DNA of 64,000 nt, taken from Latilactobacillus sakei (GTDB lineage Bacteria > Bacillota > Bacilli > Lactobacillales > Lactobacillaceae). The stretch lies in the NCBI GenBank assembly GCA_002953655.1, contig CP025839.1:1426001-1490000 (forward strand), given 5' to 3'. Positions 2,888-62,178 of the stretch are shown here, piece after piece. Each line of letters starts with the position of its first letter. The stretch's first letter is position 1. Position numbers and translations under genes: made by a program. The notes under the pieces are model-generated. The model was not told where the DNA came from. It saw nothing but the letters and a program-made list of their open reading frames with translations, and did no database searches.

Positions 2888-2971
2888 GTGCTTTCACCAA
2901 CTGCTTTCTGCGCTTTGCCAGTAATCCGCCTGATTAGGCAAATGCTCAAAAGCAACCCGTTGATGACACAC
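2888..2971 (-). repeat. Structured 3'-UTR element, copy A (downstream of apt)
   Basis: On the minus strand: outer arm GTGTGTCATCAAC, bulge GGGT(T), inner arm GCTTTT, core GAGCATTTGCCTAATC, small TAATC/GATTA hairpin, AAGCGCAG, inner arm AAAGCA, outer arm GTTGGTGAAAGCAC. It begins 7 bases after the apt stop codon and runs toward the lexA terminator. It shares its architecture and core, but not its arm sequence, with the copies at 45599, 53991 and 60988. Confidence 0.7.
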
Positions 2972-2978
2972 TTCTTGA

Positions 2979-3497
2979 TTAATATTCCATTAATTTGAAA
3001 ATATCATAGTCCTTAATCTTTTCGCGGCCGTTTAAGTCCTTCAATTCGATGAAGAAGGCTGTCCCCACGACGATCCCGCCTAGTTCTTCAACCATTTTGA
3101 TTGTTGCGGCAATTGTGCCACCGGTTGCTAATAAGTCATCTGTCACTAAGACTTTTTGGCCTGGTTTAACAGCATCTTTGTGCATATACAACGTTGATTC
3201 ACCGTATTCTAAACCATAGCTAGCTGAAACTGTTTCGCGTGGCAACTTGCCCTTCTTACGAGCAGGTGCAAAACCGACACCTAATTTGTAAGCAACTGGA
3301 CAGCCAACGATAAAGCCCCGGGCTTCAGGGCCAACGATCATTTCAACGCCTTTGTTCTTAGCGTATTCAACAATTTTATCCGTTGCTGCTGCGTATGCTC
3401 CACCATCGGACATCAAAGGTGAGATATCACGAAAAGTAACGCCAGCTTCCGGAAAATCCGGAACACTTGCGACATAATCTTTAAAGTTGATTGACAT
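2979..3497 (-). CDS. apt: Adenine phosphoribosyltransferase
   Basis: Salvages adenine with PRPP to give AMP and pyrophosphate in the cytosol. The 172 residues match the family length. The PRPP-binding loop [12 protein letters not shown] lies at about 116-127. The purine-binding VGPEARGFI segment is near 55-63. Start ATG at 3497 follows GGAGCG. It sits 23 bases downstream of recJ on the same strand, the common recJ-apt operon of Firmicutes. Confidence 0.97.
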
Positions 3498-36081: not shown

Positions 36082-36126
36082 AAAAAGGGTCGGGACAAAA
36101 GTTATTTTTGTCCCGACCCTTTTTTA
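36082..36126. terminator. Bidirectional terminator after the MATE gene
   Basis: AAAAAGGGTCGGGACAAAA/TTTTTGTCCCGACCCTTTTT hairpin between convergent genes. Confidence 0.92.
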
Positions 36127-45351: not shown

Positions 45352-45531
45352 ATGAAACATAAATTTTTTAAAGGTTTCGTAATCGGGACTGTTTCTACTG
45401 TTGGTGCGATTGCCGGTTCACTCTTTGCATTTAAGAAAACCGTGTTAGATCCTATCGAAGAAGAAGAAAATAAAATCGAAGAAAATCGTCGTCGCGCTAA
45501 CCGTAAGAGCCATTCAGCTCACCAAGGCTAA
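45352..45531 (+). CDS. DUF3042 family small membrane protein
   Basis: 59 residues. KHKFFKGFVIGTVSTVGAIA then a basic and Glu-rich tail ending ENRRRANRKSHSAHQG, which is the DUF3042 signature. One membrane helix (8-26). GAGGAGG precedes the ATG by 8 bases. Divergent from miaA. Function unknown; the family is common next to miaA/glnRA in lactobacilli. Confidence 0.92.
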   Translation: MKHKFFKGFVIGTVSTVGAIAGSLFAFKKTVLDPIEEEENKIEENRRRANRKSHSAHQG

Positions 45532-45598: not shown

Positions 45599-45710
45599 GT
45601 GCTTTTATCGCTAGCTTTCTGCGCCTAACTACGTGTGCCAAACTAGCGATTACATCGCTAATTCGTCACCCTAGGTTAATGCTCAAAAGCTGACCAAGCG
45701 ATAAAAGCAC
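45599..45710 (-). repeat. Structured 3'-UTR element, copy B (downstream of rhodanese gene)
   Basis: Minus strand: GTGCTTTTATCGCT arm, TGGTC bulge, AGCTTTT arm, GAGCATTAACCTAG core, inner hairpin TTAGCGAT/ATCGCTAG, CGTAGTTAGGCGCAG, AAAGCT and AGCGATAAAAGCAC. Outer arms pair perfectly over 14 bases. It lies just beyond the rhodanese terminator, in the same orientation relative to the upstream gene as the other copies. Confidence 0.7.
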
Positions 45711-45775: not shown

Positions 45776-46189
45776 CTACTTTTTACGTTTTGTTTTTCCT
45801 GTCCAGTTATTAAAACCTTTTTGGAGCCATTTAACGTTCGTAAAACCTGCTTTGCGAAGTTTTAATGCTGCCCGAACGCTTAATGTAATGCCTGTATCAT
45901 AGAGATAGACCGGCAAATCCATTCGTAATTCACCCATATTTTGTTTCAACATAGGGTAAGGAATGCTCCGTGCGCCTAAGATATGGCCAGCGTCGAAATC
46001 CTTACGTTCACGCAAATCAACAATTTGGGCTTTACGCATGTTTTCTTCAAAGGCCTTTTCAGTCAATTCGCCGCCTAGGCGCTTACGTTGGATTTTATAA
46101 TAAACCCATACGCCAATTATCCATAGCAAAATAGCGATCAAGATAATATTAACAACAAACATTGGATTAATTGTCCCGATTACAAACAT
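45776..46189 (-). CDS. Membrane-anchored rhodanese-like protein (YqhL type), catalytic Cys replaced
   Basis: 137 residues: N-terminal helix (10-29), then a rhodanese domain (VDLRERKDFDAGHILGARSIPY, 57-78). The loop that should hold the active Cys reads YLYDTG, with Asp98 in its place, so thiosulfate sulfurtransferase activity is unlikely. It may act as a binding or scaffold domain. Last gene of the glcK operon, 24 bases after glcK; GGAAG precedes the ATG. Confidence 0.92.
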   Translation of the reverse strand: MFVIGTINPMFVVNIILIAILLWIIGVWVYYKIQRKRLGGELTEKAFEENMRKAQIVDLRERKDFDAGHILGARSIPYPMLKQNMGELRMDLPVYLYDTGITLSVRAALKLRKAGFTNVKWLQKGFNNWTGKTKRKK

Positions 46190-51365: not shown

Positions 51366-53981
51366 GTGACTCGATTATACACTTTTTTACGACGCCACTA
51401 CGCGTTAGGCCTTAGCTTCTTGTTACCTTTTGCCATTATTTTTATTTATGGTTTAAGTCGTCATGTCTTTCCGTTTGGCGGTCAAACAATTATGACTGTC
51501 GATTTAGGACAGCAGTACATCGACTTTTTTGCCTATTTTAGAACGACACTACTCCAGCATCCCGACACCTTCTTTTATTCATTTGCCAAAGGGCTCGGCG
51601 GCGATATGTTGGGTGTTTGGGCCTACTATTTAATGAGCCCGTTTAACCTACTGGTCTTATTAACCCCTGGTAAATGGTTGAGCTTTGGTGTTTGGCTGAT
51701 GGTATTGCTCAAATATGGTTTTAGTGGGTTGAGTTTTGCCTACTATCTCAAGAAAAGTCGCCTGCTAAATGGTTGGTGGCTCCCAACGCTCAGTTTGACC
51801 TATGCACTATCTGGCTTTGCAATCGCCAACCAATTTAACGTGATGTGGTTAGACGCCATGATTTGGCTACCATTAGTCGTTTTGGGCATCGAACAGCTCT
51901 TTGAGCGCCAGCGTTTTTGGTTGTACCCGCTTAGCTTAGCGGCTTTATTAATTATCAACTATTATATGGGTTACATGGTTTGTTTATTTGTAGTTGCCTA
52001 TTTTTTCTGGGCGAGTGTCCATCATTTTAAAACTTGGCGCCAAACTTGCCTCGTCTACCTCAAATTCGCCGGTGGTTCACTTCTAGCTGGGCTATTAGCC
52101 GCTTGGTTATTATTACCAACCTTCTTCCAATTGACCCAGAGTAAGGGTCAATACACGATTCAAAAGATCCATTGGAAAATTGAGTATAACCCGCTTAAAA
52201 TTCTCTCTAAATTAGTGGTTGGGAATTTTAATTTTGATCAAATGCCAAAAGGTGAACCCAATATTTTTGTGGGCAGTCTGATTTTAATTGGTTTTATCGC
52301 CTATTTTCTAACCCGCAAGATTCCGATTAAAGAACGCTTGGCTGCATTATTGGTAACTGGATTTCTTGGTCTATCACTGTGCTTTGAACCGCTCGATTTA
52401 CTCTGGCATGGCATGCAATTCCCAGTTTGGTATCCTTATCGTTTCTCTTATGTCATCAGCTTCTGGCTAATCGTTTTAGCTATTCAGCGATTGCATTATC
52501 AACCACAGTTCAAGTGGTACAGCTTGCTCGCACCACTTCTACTACTGGCCGCATCGCTTGCTTATACTTTCAAACACGTCAAAACATTTTCAGCATTATC
52601 CGAACGACAAGTACTCCTTAGCCTTGGCTTTTTAATCGCTGTCAGTTTGATTTTAATGTTACCAGCTCGTTTCAAACGCTATACTGCTGTCTTTTTATTA
52701 CTCGTTACTGGTGGTGAAATGACTGCCAATGCAGTTCTCAGTTTGAATCAAATTAGCTACGTTTCCCAAAAGGATTACGCTGATTACACCGAACAACTCC
52801 AATCAGCAGTCGCCGCTGTCCCGAATAAGGTGCCGTTCCAACGCATTGGTAAAACGTTCATGCGGACTAAAAATGATCCAATGCAAGCCAATTATTTCGG
52901 GGGTTCCCACTTTAATTCGATGTTGGAGCCGAGCTATCCCAAATTCATGGGCAGTATCGGTGAGCCAGCTGGTGACGGTTCCGTGGCCGATACTAACCAA
53001 ACAATGTTCACCGATGCTTTACTAGGTTATCGCTATTACCTCAACAGTACCAGTGTTCAAGCAACCGTGCCGCGCAGTACCAACAAACCTGATTTAAGTG
53101 ACTATCGCCAAATCAAGCAAAATGGCCAGATTGCCATTTATCAAAATGATAATGCATTACCACTGGGTTTTGCGGCTTCTGATAAAGTGCTTAAACATAA
53201 GGTCACGGCGGACTATCCAATTCTTGAACAGGGCAACATTGCAACCAAGCTAACGGCTAATCCAACACTTGGTAATCAATTATTCACCCTTCAATATTTC
53301 AACACCGTTGCTTACCAAAATACTAAACAAAAACCGAAGTTAAACGAAACCTTCCTCCGCATCAATTCTAAAAAAGATGCGCACGTGACTTATACCTTCA
53401 CCCCAACAACCAATGATCCCTACTATTTAACGCTGGGATCAAGTCTCGAAAAGAACGCTGTACGTTTAACATTAAACGGTCAGCCGATTACGCAATACGA
53501 TACCTTCAGAGATACCGTTGCGCTTAACTTAACTAACAAGGCCCTCGGGAAACCGCAAACGTTAGACATTGCCTTTTCAAAAGATGAGATTTGGCTTCAA
53601 AACATCAATCTCTATAGTCTTAACTTGGAAACCCTAAGCAAGATTACCACGCAATTAAAACAATCACCGTTGCATATTAAACATTTTTCAAATACAAATA
53701 TCCGCGGTGATATCACGATCAAGCATAAAAACCAAGTCTTGATGACGACGATTCCTGATGCGCCTGGCTGGCAAGTAACCGTCGACAACCACCCCGTGAA
53801 GGCAGCCAAAGGACTCAAGAACTTCATTGCGGTGCCATTAAAAGCTGGCCATCATCAAATCCAACTAACTTACCGGCCTCCTTATTTCAGACTAGGCCTT
53901 CTAATCTCAGTTGTTTCGGCATTAATGGCAATCTTAATCGCGATTATAACGCGCTATTTTAGAAGAAGACGACTGTTTTAA
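51366..53981 (+). CDS. yfhO: YfhO family membrane protein (glycosyltransferase-like)
   Basis: 871 residues: about twelve membrane helices in residues 10-440, then a large extracellular domain (about 450-835) and a last helix (840-863) with an RRRR tail. The family glycosylates wall or lipoteichoic acids. N-terminal signature LGQQYIDFFAYFR and GGDMLGVWAYYLMSPFN. GTG start 51366, 9 bases after GGAGG. Stands alone. Confidence 0.92.
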   Translation: MTRLYTFLRRHYALGLSFLLPFAIIFIYGLSRHVFPFGGQTIMTVDLGQQYIDFFAYFRTTLLQHPDTFFYSFAKGLGGDMLGVWAYYLMSPFNLLVLLTPGKWLSFGVWLMVLLKYGFSGLSFAYYLKKSRLLNGWWLPTLSLTYALSGFAIANQFNVMWLDAMIWLPLVVLGIEQLFERQRFWLYPLSLAALLIINYYMGYMVCLFVVAYFFWASVHHFKTWRQTCLVYLKFAGGSLLAGLLAAWLLLPTFFQLTQSKGQYTIQKIHWKIEYNPLKILSKLVVGNFNFDQMPKGEPNIFVGSLILIGFIAYFLTRKIPIKERLAALLVTGFLGLSLCFEPLDLLWHGMQFPVWYPYRFSYVISFWLIVLAIQRLHYQPQFKWYSLLAPLLLLAASLAYTFKHVKTFSALSERQVLLSLGFLIAVSLILMLPARFKRYTAVFLLLVTGGEMTANAVLSLNQISYVSQKDYADYTEQLQSAVAAVPNKVPFQRIGKTFMRTKNDPMQANYFGGSHFNSMLEPSYPKFMGSIGEPAGDGSVADTNQTMFTDALLGYRYYLNSTSVQATVPRSTNKPDLSDYRQIKQNGQIAIYQNDNALPLGFAASDKVLKHKVTADYPILEQGNIATKLTANPTLGNQLFTLQYFNTVAYQNTKQKPKLNETFLRINSKKDAHVTYTFTPTTNDPYYLTLGSSLEKNAVRLTLNGQPITQYDTFRDTVALNLTNKALGKPQTLDIAFSKDEIWLQNINLYSLNLETLSKITTQLKQSPLHIKHFSNTNIRGDITIKHKNQVLMTTIPDAPGWQVTVDNHPVKAAKGLKNFIAVPLKAGHHQIQLTYRPPYFRLGLLISVVSALMAILIAIITRYFRRRRLF

Positions 53982-53990
53982 AAAAGAAGA

Positions 53991-54100
53991 GTGTAGCATA
54001 AGTCGGGTATATTCTGAGGATTAACAGAGAGCGGCGGATAATTGCGTTAGCAATTATTCGTCGTTCGGCATTAACCACAGGAATATGACTTATAGAACAC
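53991..54100 (+). repeat. Structured 3'-UTR element, copy D (downstream of yfhO)
   Basis: Plus strand: GTGTAGCATAAGTC arm, GGGT bulge, ATATTC arm, TGAGGATTAAC core, inner hairpin GGATAATTGC-GTTA-GCAATTAT, ACGCCGAAC-like 3' core ending AACCACA, GGAATAT and GACTTATAGAACAC arms. Begins 10 bases after the yfhO stop; followed by a terminator. Confidence 0.7.
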
Positions 54101-58723: not shown

Positions 58724-58724
58724 C

Positions 58725-58748
58725 GTGCAGTTCAAAGCGGTTTAATCC
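58725..58748 (+). repeat. Possible fragment F of the 3'-UTR element family
   Basis: GTGCAGTTCAAAGC then GGTT and TAATCCT, two bases after the DEDDh gene stop: same start (GTG plus 11 bases plus GGTT bulge) and orientation as full copies, but the GAGCATT core and 3' arm are missing. Short, so may be chance. Confidence 0.3.
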
Positions 58749-58755
58749 TACCAAC

Positions 58756-60955: not shown

Positions 60956-60980
60956 GGAATCACTTTCAAAGTCACTCTTA
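60956..60980 (-). repeat. Extra copy of the element C arm (direct repeat)
   Basis: GGAATC plus ACTTTCAAAGTCACTCTTA repeats the sequence at 61075-61104, exact over the last 20 bases, but without the 5-base bulge. It lies between element C and the pta terminator. Confidence 0.75.
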
Positions 60981-60987
60981 TTGAAAC

Positions 60988-61099
60988 GTGTCTTTGAAAG
61001 TAGATTCCTATGCTTTGCTACGTCCCGCAAATAATCGACTAAAGTCGCTTATTCACTGGACTAGGCAAATGCTCGGAATCTAACCACTTTCAAAGTCAC
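60988..61099 (-). repeat. Structured 3'-UTR element, copy C (downstream of pta)
   Basis: Minus strand: GTGACTTTGAAAGT arm, GGTT bulge, AGATTCC arm, GAGCATTTGCCTAGTCC core, inner hairpin AATAAGCGACT/AGTCGATTATT, GACGTAGCAAAGCATA, GGAATCT and ACTTTCAAAGACAC. Begins 2 bases after the pta stop codon. Confidence 0.75.
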
Positions 61100-61101
61100 T
61101 C

Positions 61102-62088
61102 TTAATTTTGTAGTGCTTGGGCTGCTGTGATGATGGCTAACTTGTAGACATCTTCTTCGTTGCTCCCACGTGATAAATCTGAGATTGGTTTATTTAAGCC
61201 TTGTAAGATGGGGCCGATTGCTTCGAAGTTACCGAAACGTTGGGCAATCTTGTAGCCAATGTTCCCTGATTGTAATTCTGGGAAAACAAAGACGTTCGCT
61301 TGACCTGCCACTTTTGAATCTGGGGCTTTTTGGTTAGCAACCACTGGGACATAAGCGGCATCGAATTGTAATTCACCGTCAATGTCTAAGTCAGGTGCTA
61401 ATTCTTGAGCAATCTTGGTTGCTTCTTGGACCTTGGTCACTTCTTCGCCACGGGCAGAGCCCATTGTTGAAAAGCTCAAAAGCGCCACTTTAGGATCAAT
61501 ATCAAATAATTCAGCGGTGCGTGCTGAAGCCACCGCAATTTCTGCTAATTCTTGCGCATTTGGATTGATGTTGATGGCACAGTCTGAGAATAAATAACGT
61601 TCGTTGTCGCGGCCACGTTGCATGATGAACGCGCCACTTGTCCGTTGAATGCCAGGTTTGGTTTTGATAATTTGAAGGGCTGGACGGACTGTATCACCAG
61701 TTGAGTGAACAGCCCCTGAAACCATCCCATCGGCCAAATCAAGATAAACCATCATGGTGCCAAAATAATTAGGATCTTGTAAAATGGTTTGGGCTTGTTC
61801 TGTCGTTGCTTTGCCTTTACGACGTTCAACAAAAGCGGCTACCATTGTGTCAAAATCTGCTTGAGGATACGCTTTAGGATCAATAATTGTAATCCCTGTA
61901 AGATTAAACCCTTTGGCAGATGCAATGCTTTGAATATCGGCTGCATCCCCGATTAAAATTGGTTTTAAAATTCGGTCAGCATTCAAACGGGCTGCTGCAC
62001 CAATAATTCTAGGTTCTGTTCCTTCAGGAAAAACAATCTTAAAATCATGACTCGTAATTTTTGCTTTCAAACTTTCAAATAAATCCAA
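61102..62088 (-). CDS. pta: Phosphate acetyltransferase
   Basis: Converts acetyl-CoA and phosphate to acetyl phosphate, then used by AckA (21632) for ATP. 328 residues. VFPEGTEPRIIGAAARL near 20-36, SGAVHSTGDTVRPALQII (170s), SFSTMGSARG and DGELQFDAAYVP. Start TTG 62088: GGAGG lies 8 bases upstream and is itself inside the longer in-frame ATG start at 62103. A cre-like AAAACGCTTTTA lies just before it. Confidence 0.95.
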   Translation of the reverse strand: MDLFESLKAKITSHDFKIVFPEGTEPRIIGAAARLNADRILKPILIGDAADIQSIASAKGFNLTGITIIDPKAYPQADFDTMVAAFVERRKGKATTEQAQTILQDPNYFGTMMVYLDLADGMVSGAVHSTGDTVRPALQIIKTKPGIQRTSGAFIMQRGRDNERYLFSDCAININPNAQELAEIAVASARTAELFDIDPKVALLSFSTMGSARGEEVTKVQEATKIAQELAPDLDIDGELQFDAAYVPVVANQKAPDSKVAGQANVFVFPELQSGNIGYKIAQRFGNFEAIGPILQGLNKPISDLSRGSNEEDVYKLAIITAAQALQN

Positions 62089-62178
62089 AATAGTAACCTC
62101 CATAAAAGCGTTTTATTTATAATCTGATACAATCATACAACGTTTCTTATCGTCCGACAAGTCAATAATGAGAGCGTT

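Follow-up and report, generated by a model that had tools for sequence, protein, structure and literature searches.

A REP-like family of bulged hairpins, often located behind stop codons, in Latilactobacillus sakei: a candidate 3'-UTR RNA element

In repeats of the REP/BIME type, stem residues may be replaced by other complementary ones, G-T pairs occur, and the termini often supply a TAG stop, as described in the accessible part of PMC3733652. REPs of E. coli that lie less than 16 nt from a stop codon have been reported to stall ribosomes and lower translation (PMC12306157, accessible part). Concerning Enterococcus faecalis, the accessible text of PMC2267715 describes Efa-1, a repeat of 163 bp with 65 copies that forms a pair of adjacent stem-loops; Lac-1, located within genes, is the single repeat family given there for L. 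johnsonii. Among the bcr repeats of Bacillus cereus, 84 of 165 and 62 of 155 copies were found within mRNA in two strains, some families have a conserved RNA structure, and of bcr1, bcr2 and bcr3 only bcr3 displayed a correlation with decay rate (PMC3446304, accessible part).

We examined a window of 64,000 nucleotides, bases 1426001-1490000 of the 2,103,571-base, single-contig genome of Latilactobacillus sakei (labelled G000), for which an earlier note had proposed a family of structured 3'-UTR elements. That note recognised no named Rfam family, and our comparison with Rfam 15 gave no match over an element, either in the window at the gathering threshold, where only tmRNA and one tRNA were detected, or in five copy-rich loci at E<=1. 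We found no description of the family in lactobacilli in searches of the open-licence literature, including the accessible portions of PMC2965389, PMC1590033, PMC2267715, PMC12306157, PMC3733652 and PMC3446304. Our results suggest an undescribed, REP-like family that acts at the 3' ends of messages.

Architecture and folding of the repeat

A complete copy measures about 110 bases and forms a bulged hairpin that stands on GTG/CAC feet and contains a GAG core. From the feet inwards, it consists of an outer arm, a 4-base bulge, an inner arm, a GAG/GSA internal loop, a conserved stem and a central hairpin, and its ends are conserved as AGAGTG...CACGTTT. The four copies of the window, A to D, were found where the earlier note had placed them (Table 1), and each folded better than dinucleotide shuffles, with z-scores of -3.6 (A), -8.2 (B), -7.0 (C) and -8.3 (D). 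One of 200 shuffles folded as well as copy A, and none as well as B, C or D. The single architecture attributed to all four applies to B, C and D, whereas copy A, with 84 bases, is without most of the central hairpin. The gene upstream of copy A was assigned as apt by NCBIfam NF002633, and that upstream of copy C as phosphotransacetylase (pta), also by NCBIfam; the protein encoded upstream of copy D resembles PgfM glycosyltransferases with a score below the curated cut-off. An isolated GACAAAAGTTATTTTTGTC hairpin is present at 36094-36112, apart from the four copies.

Table 1. Copies and partial copies of the element in the window (window coordinates).
Feature	Position	Strand	Context
Copy A	2888..2971	-	7 bases past apt stop (apt 2979-3497, -), before terminator
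Copy B	45599..45710	-	past terminator of gene 45776-46189 (-); faces small + strand ORF ending near 45530
Copy C	60988..61099	-	2 bases past stop of phosphate acetyltransferase gene (61102-62103, -)
Half copy of C's left arm, no GGTT bulge	60956..60983	-	between copy C and its terminator
Copy D	53991..54100	+	9 bases past stop of gene 51366-53981 (+), before terminator
Left-arm remnant only	58724..58752	+	orthologous site in G005 (gap 50) has a full copy plus this half copy

In the whole genome, the core pattern GAGSATTWRCC was matched exactly 31 times, compared with 5 times for the reversed control pattern. Twenty-nine full copies were aligned (alignment A2), with double changes in 25 of the 31 predicted pairs. 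The model based on this alignment (R1) gave at least 143 matches at E<=1 among the 150 candidates scored in its own genome, including one antisense echo and two matches with E above 0.1. The family comprises about 140 copies in 91 arrays in the 2.1 Mb genome. Arrays contain 1-4 copies in the same orientation, with a period of about 124 bases. Concerning the arms, the earlier note held that they differ completely between copies and yet pair. The pairing within each copy was confirmed, but arm families do recur: GTTTGAAAC, for instance, occurs in 12 of the 111 copies that were scored, although the outer arm took 84 different forms. A few single copies, among them those at G000 positions 94011 and 14507 (L112:10123-10253 and L110:2501-2631), carry arms of two different families that do not pair, and look like recombinants between array units. 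Half and mini copies, which have arms without the core, trail full copies of the same outer arm (L013, L023, the half copy behind copy C, and intergenic gaps 225 and 250) and look like partial tandem units or deletion products.

Covariation was quantified in a set of equal geometry (63 of 126 copies, chosen by geometry and pairing score) with a hand-specified structure of 42 pairs. Paired cells amounted to 96.0%, compared with 72.2% in shuffles and 30-44% in slid structures, and the covariation score was 0.691 against 0.238 in shuffles, these figures being biased toward pairing because of the way the copies were picked. Double changes, one form of the covariation on which the earlier note had made its RNA-structure idea depend, were found at 34 of the 42 pairs in this set and across all four helices. 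As an independent control, we used chimeras in which right halves were swapped between copies and the geometry was re-optimised. In the 126 copies of G000, the outer arm was 89% Watson-Crick (57-60% in chimeras) and the inner arm 84% (61-63%); in 114 copies from other genera, the values were 89% (54-56%) and 91% (67-70%), respectively. Covariation is thus strong in all four helices and survives the chimera control, in agreement with a selected structure rather than a mere sequence duplication, as had been proposed.

The non-Watson-Crick cells revealed the strand that folds. The ratio of G-T to A-C was 62:30 in G000 and 28:10 in other genera, an excess that was not seen in the chimeras (126:113 and 125:129). 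Since G-T exceeds A-C, the gene-sense strand is the folding strand, although strand-biased mutation could add some of the excess. A covarying structure on the sense strand, the feature looked for in a cis-acting 3'-UTR RNA, is present in the family. A signal at the DNA level, such as a cruciform, a protein roadblock, or an uptake or methylation site, would account for many palindromic, intergenic copies. A two-strand cruciform, however, does not predict G-T over A-C on the sense strand, and the sense-side position at stops described below and the arms without fixed sequence also speak against a DNA signal, which we judge very improbable; a pure cruciform is specifically disfavoured by the G-T excess.

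Location relative to stop codons and terminators

With a simple ORF caller, 142 copies fell into 91 arrays, and a same-strand upstream gene was found at 74 of them. In terms of context, 44 arrays were co-directional with tandem genes, 14 were anti-directional to tandem genes, 30 were between convergent genes and 3 between divergent genes. The earlier note had named the absence of a preferred orientation as a sign against RNA structure; a preference was found, with 44 arrays along and 14 against the direction of tandem genes.

An array was regarded as stop-adjacent when an open frame of at least 100 codons, counted from stop to stop, ended on the same strand -6 to 15 bases from the GTG foot. 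In G000, this was the case for 54 of 85 arrays, compared with 1 of 85 in the mirrored control and 1.5% at random positions. The stricter test supersedes a looser one with a greedy ORF caller, which had given 57 of 86 (G000) and 27 of 92 (named loci). Upstream genes of at least 60 codons were found within -6 to 15 bases at 58 of 86 arrays. The foot of the hairpin usually lies 1-12 bases past the stop, and the stop codon frequently overlaps the foot, as TAGAGTG or TAAGAGTG. A location 3' of genes and often near stops is a REP-type feature, and the family displays it. In the window, the earlier description of copies 2-10 bases after a stop, or past a terminator, agrees with the distances in Table 1.

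Outside L. sakei, 24 of 87 arrays at the named loci (80 of 120 stretches listed) were stop-adjacent, against 3 of 87 in the mirrored control and 1.7% at random. Among the matches listed, the share was 11 of 59 arrays in Lapidilactobacillus and 13 of 28 in the remaining genera, and the former value indicates that the family can persist without being stop-adjacent. When the best-scoring copies from 22 genomes of eight other genera were inspected, 18 of 22 first copies were within -13 to 13 bases of a same-strand stop. In a genus of a second family of the order (f5/g67), with a range of -8 to 18, 11 of 19 loci were stop-adjacent (mirrored 0, random 3.5%), these loci including the same places in related species and later array copies. 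In a third family (f3/g50), the value was 1 of 8, in arrays whose first copy was not located.

The genes upstream of the elements in G000 include groEL, eno, rplL, nusG, clpP, acpP, dnaB and several tRNA ligases. Of 20 upstream proteins that we chose for profiling, a non-random selection, 18 scored above the curated cut-off: DnaB, GroEL, enolase, S14, ClpP, TyrS, ACP, L7/L12, NusG, GlmS, GlmM, ThrS, LeuS, PcrA, SerS, GalU, Apt and Pta. Taking into account the one-strand bulge, the variable paired arms, the position just behind stops and the uniform orientation in arrays, we considered an integron attC-like recombination site, a single-stranded, bulged, imperfect palindrome with variable arms that stands behind each gene. 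The R boxes of attC sites follow the consensus RYYYAAC/GTTRRRY, and the feet AGAGTG/CACGTTT, compared by eye, look unlike it. As the copies are moreover scattered over the chromosome behind core genes with no cassette arrays, we consider an attC-like site highly unlikely.

A terminator was detected within 160 bases downstream of 55 of 86 arrays, compared with 42 of 153 control gene ends. The possibility that the element is itself the terminator was rejected; there is no U run after CACGTTT, and a separate terminator follows those 55 arrays. A stable hairpin ahead of a terminator could also serve as a source of 3'-UTR-derived small RNAs. However, the arms, which would be the likely seed, vary freely, and 31 of 86 arrays have no terminator within 160 bases by the detector used, so that this reading has very little chance of being correct. 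As a separate observation, a loop-side core GACAAA..TTTGTC with copy-specific stems was seen in the downstream terminators of 26 of 86 arrays and at 7 of 153 control ends (L110-L166).

Distribution, turnover and divergence

Searches at E<=0.01 in six genomes of the genus gave at least 141, at least 150, 23, at least 150, 27 and at least 149 matches. One of these genomes, G001, is L. curvatus (a stretch of 8,249 bases is 100% identical to a public record). In a sample of Lactobacillaceae, matches were found in 116 of 251 genomes and 19 of 40 genera, and exact-core matches in named genomes, among the 80 stretches listed of at least 120, fell in Lapidilactobacillus, Pediococcus, Loigolactobacillus, Latilactobacillus fuchuensis, Lactiplantibacillus and Companilactobacillus. 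In a sample of the order, 36 of 345 genomes had matches, including 13 that belong to families other than Lactobacillaceae, where the relatives have diverged. All 13 genomes of f5/g67 contain 2-12 matches that span the whole model, and the same plan (AGAGTG-like foot, arm, bulge, arm, GAG, hairpin, arms, CACGTTT-like foot) was recognized at 19 of 20 loci, the exception (L366) being at a contig end and out of register. In f3/g50, weak matches were obtained in 3 of 10 genomes; eight sequences retain bulge and core and have different feet. One blastn query against a phage collection gave no match.

In Lapidilactobacillus, several groups of copies have a common left flank (L234, L237, L257 and L271; L248 and L252; L256 and L261; L236 and L262), and therefore seem to be embedded in larger mosaic repeats. 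Matches to the 300-base flanks were obtained in 60 of 77 cases on the upstream side and in 59 of 77 on the downstream side, in part due to array neighbours inside the flanks. Two L. curvatus records labelled as plasmids, CP117684.1 (L167, 592 kb) and NZ_CP016468.1 (L169, 220 kb), carry housekeeping genes such as gltX and aspS, or trmB and murC, and look like chromosome pieces. Neighbouring stretches of the L. sakei genome contain a T-box leader (L132:993-1196, below the gathering score) and a PreQ1 riboswitch (L159:3600-3644, above it).

Turnover was followed mainly in G005, a collinear relative that is 92% identical over the longest matched block. Among 162 distinct orthologous gaps, 36 were occupied in both genomes, 2 in G000 only, 3 in G005 only and 121 in neither, and at two of the five differences (gaps 250 and 245) a mini or centrally deleted copy was kept. 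Copy number was unequal at 18 of the 36 shared gaps, and at 10 of these 18 the two lengths differed, to within 10 bases, by one to three units of 124 bases. Of the window copies, A is present in G005 with 13.8% divergence and a central deletion, and D is common to G005 with 2.4% divergence. The site of copy B has two copies in G005, two copies with other arms in G001, and what by eye are decayed remnants in G002 and G004. At the site of copy C, there is no copy in G001-G004 and a remnant in G005. At the xfp-gltX site, four species are empty and two are occupied, the occupied ones with another terminator. As the terminator type arrived there together with the element, element and terminator may constitute one cassette. 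Of the stop-adjacent genes, 11 of 17 within the genus had a homologue among the 60 of G000 (best-scoring loci, some at the same place), compared with 3 of 48 between genera.

In terms of a mobiliser, Y1 transposase/RAYT (PF01797) gave no match in G000, G001, G002, G003 and G005 and a weak one in G004 (E=8.7e-4). RAYT mobilisation is therefore rejected as a mechanism currently resident in the host. Fixed terminal inverted repeats of 15-30 bp, as in MITEs, are not present, since GTG(C)/(G)CAC alone is near-constant and the arms vary and covary. In a check for target site duplications, the junction at site C fell at the TA of the stop codon, and elsewhere junctions were masked by swapped terminators and half copies. 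The half copies of the element's own left arm behind copy C and others had raised the idea that arms are copied from the insertion target. No arm-like sequence is present at the sites that are cleanly empty (xfp-gltX in four species, site C in G001-G004), but gaps 50 and 250, where the full copy is missing, retain a half or mini copy whose arm is the same. Partial tandem units would account for these as well, and the idea was considered possible but not adopted. The family may have spread by rare mobility together with tandem duplication and loss.

At 13 single-copy sites shared by G000 and G005, two of them aligned over only 72 bases, the median divergence was 2.6% (8.2% for all pooled). Ten of the 13 were at or below 6.5% (pooled, 30 of 1,162 bases), and the other three were at 14, 31 and 45%. 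For comparison, fourfold sites differ by 25% (22,670 sites), and element-free gaps by 6.5% between tandem genes, likewise 6.5% between divergent genes, and 10.1% between convergent ones. In five arrays that both genomes have with the same number of copies, the divergence was 4.6, 8.1, 16.9, 21.9 and 24.5%. When all shared sites under 25% were combined, the elements differed by 10.4%, compared with 8.0% for the remainder of the same gaps. Some of the higher divergence may stem from alignments between paralogues. Most single copies are therefore conserved no less well than other non-coding DNA, but arrays are not. At nine shared single-copy sites, in-place compensation was not found except at one likely swapped copy, and six single changes broke a pair. 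Pairing seems to be fixed when copies arise and then kept for a while, rather than re-evolved at each locus.

Many of these observations would be expected of a selfish, non-autonomous mobile hairpin of the REP, MITE or EFAR kind, which some enzyme would recognise by its folded sense strand (RNA or single-stranded DNA) and from which the host would gain nothing; the position at stops would then be the least harmful insertion spot, or the enzyme would target terminator regions. Such an element would fit the tandem arrays, in which 1-4 copies recur about every 124 bases, and the orthologous sites that are filled in some species and empty in others, with a different terminator in the occupied species at xfp-gltX. 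It would also fit the lineage-specific expansion in Lapidilactobacillus mostly off stop codons, the rarity of sites common to different genera, the decayed remnants, and the shared arrays, whose divergence equals or exceeds that of the DNA around them. The low divergence of 10 of the 13 shared single copies and the sense-side position speak against it, and the lack of a RAYT match in G000 indicates that the classical REP mobiliser is not currently resident. Because of Lapidilactobacillus, the array divergence and the question of the mobiliser, we keep the selfish reading alive, with a probability that we place somewhat short of even.

Possible role and relation to known repeats

That the element stands on the sense side of the stop codon and is followed by a terminator or another gene is most readily understood if it acts on the message. 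Judging from sequence, we regard the chances as evenly balanced that this is a REP-like family, formerly or rarely mobile, which has been kept as an RNA hairpin that acts in cis from the 3' UTR, at the stop codon. The transcript would run from the stop codon through the hairpin of about 110 bases, mostly to a terminator and otherwise to the ribosome binding site of the next gene. The base of the hairpin would abut the ribosome terminating at the stop codon, and a foot 1-12 bases past the stop would meet that ribosome. Acting in cis on the upstream message, the hairpin may shield it from 3'-5' decay, slow the terminating ribosome, or both. The arms carry little sequence information beyond pairing and therefore drift in pairs; bulge, core and feet would be kept, presumably as contacts for a protein or the ribosome. 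Strong repression is less likely because of the upstream genes named above. Against a cis-acting role stand the low share of stop-adjacent arrays in Lapidilactobacillus, the sites hardly common to different genera (3 of 48), the three of 13 single copies at 14-45%, the near-absence of in-place compensation, and the arrays that diverge more than the remainder of their gaps.

A broader proposal, which we put forward tentatively and consider rather unlikely, is that of order-wide 'stop-codon hairpins', mobile RNA cassettes that dock in sense right behind stops and set ribosome termination and the decay of message ends, with arms that are free as long as they pair and with bulge, GAG core and feet that are recognised. 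If the cis-acting reading were correct, some food bacteria would harbour more than 100 natural replicates per genome of an RNA module where translation ends, providing a single-genome test bed for the effects of stop-codon hairpins on termination, ribosome rescue and message decay. One could also ask whether REP-like functions arose in Gram-positives without RAYT transposases. The family would be a large new one for Rfam and would account for many unannotated intergenic repeats of lactic acid bacteria.

EFAR elements reportedly insert at terminator-like stem-loops, and this insertion habit, as described, resembles the xfp-gltX site. EFAR/Efa-1 are, like the family described here, intergenic repeats of Firmicutes, but going by their description they are set apart by the single long hairpin that forms tandem arrays in the present case. 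The bcr1-bcr18 repeats are likewise intergenic families, some MITE-like and partly transcribed, for which the accessible text reports no strict stop-codon position or sense orientation (PMC3446304). Concerning REPs, neither a GTAG- or CGTC-tagged palindrome of 20-40 bp nor a genomic RAYT was found in our case; REPs measure 20-40 bp, carry GTAG or CGTC tags and, when tagged with GTAG, are tied to RAYT, whereas the present elements are about 110 nt long with a bulge and a GAG core. In E. coli, the REPs counted near a stop are 446 of 4,072 predicted, or 260 of 496 in an earlier study (PMC12306157, accessible part), compared with the 54 of 85 arrays found here. On the other hand, as far as the accessible descriptions of REP/BIME in enterobacteria and pseudomonads go, the family shares with them a high copy number, palindromic structure, a location mostly downstream of genes, grouping and G-T pairs.
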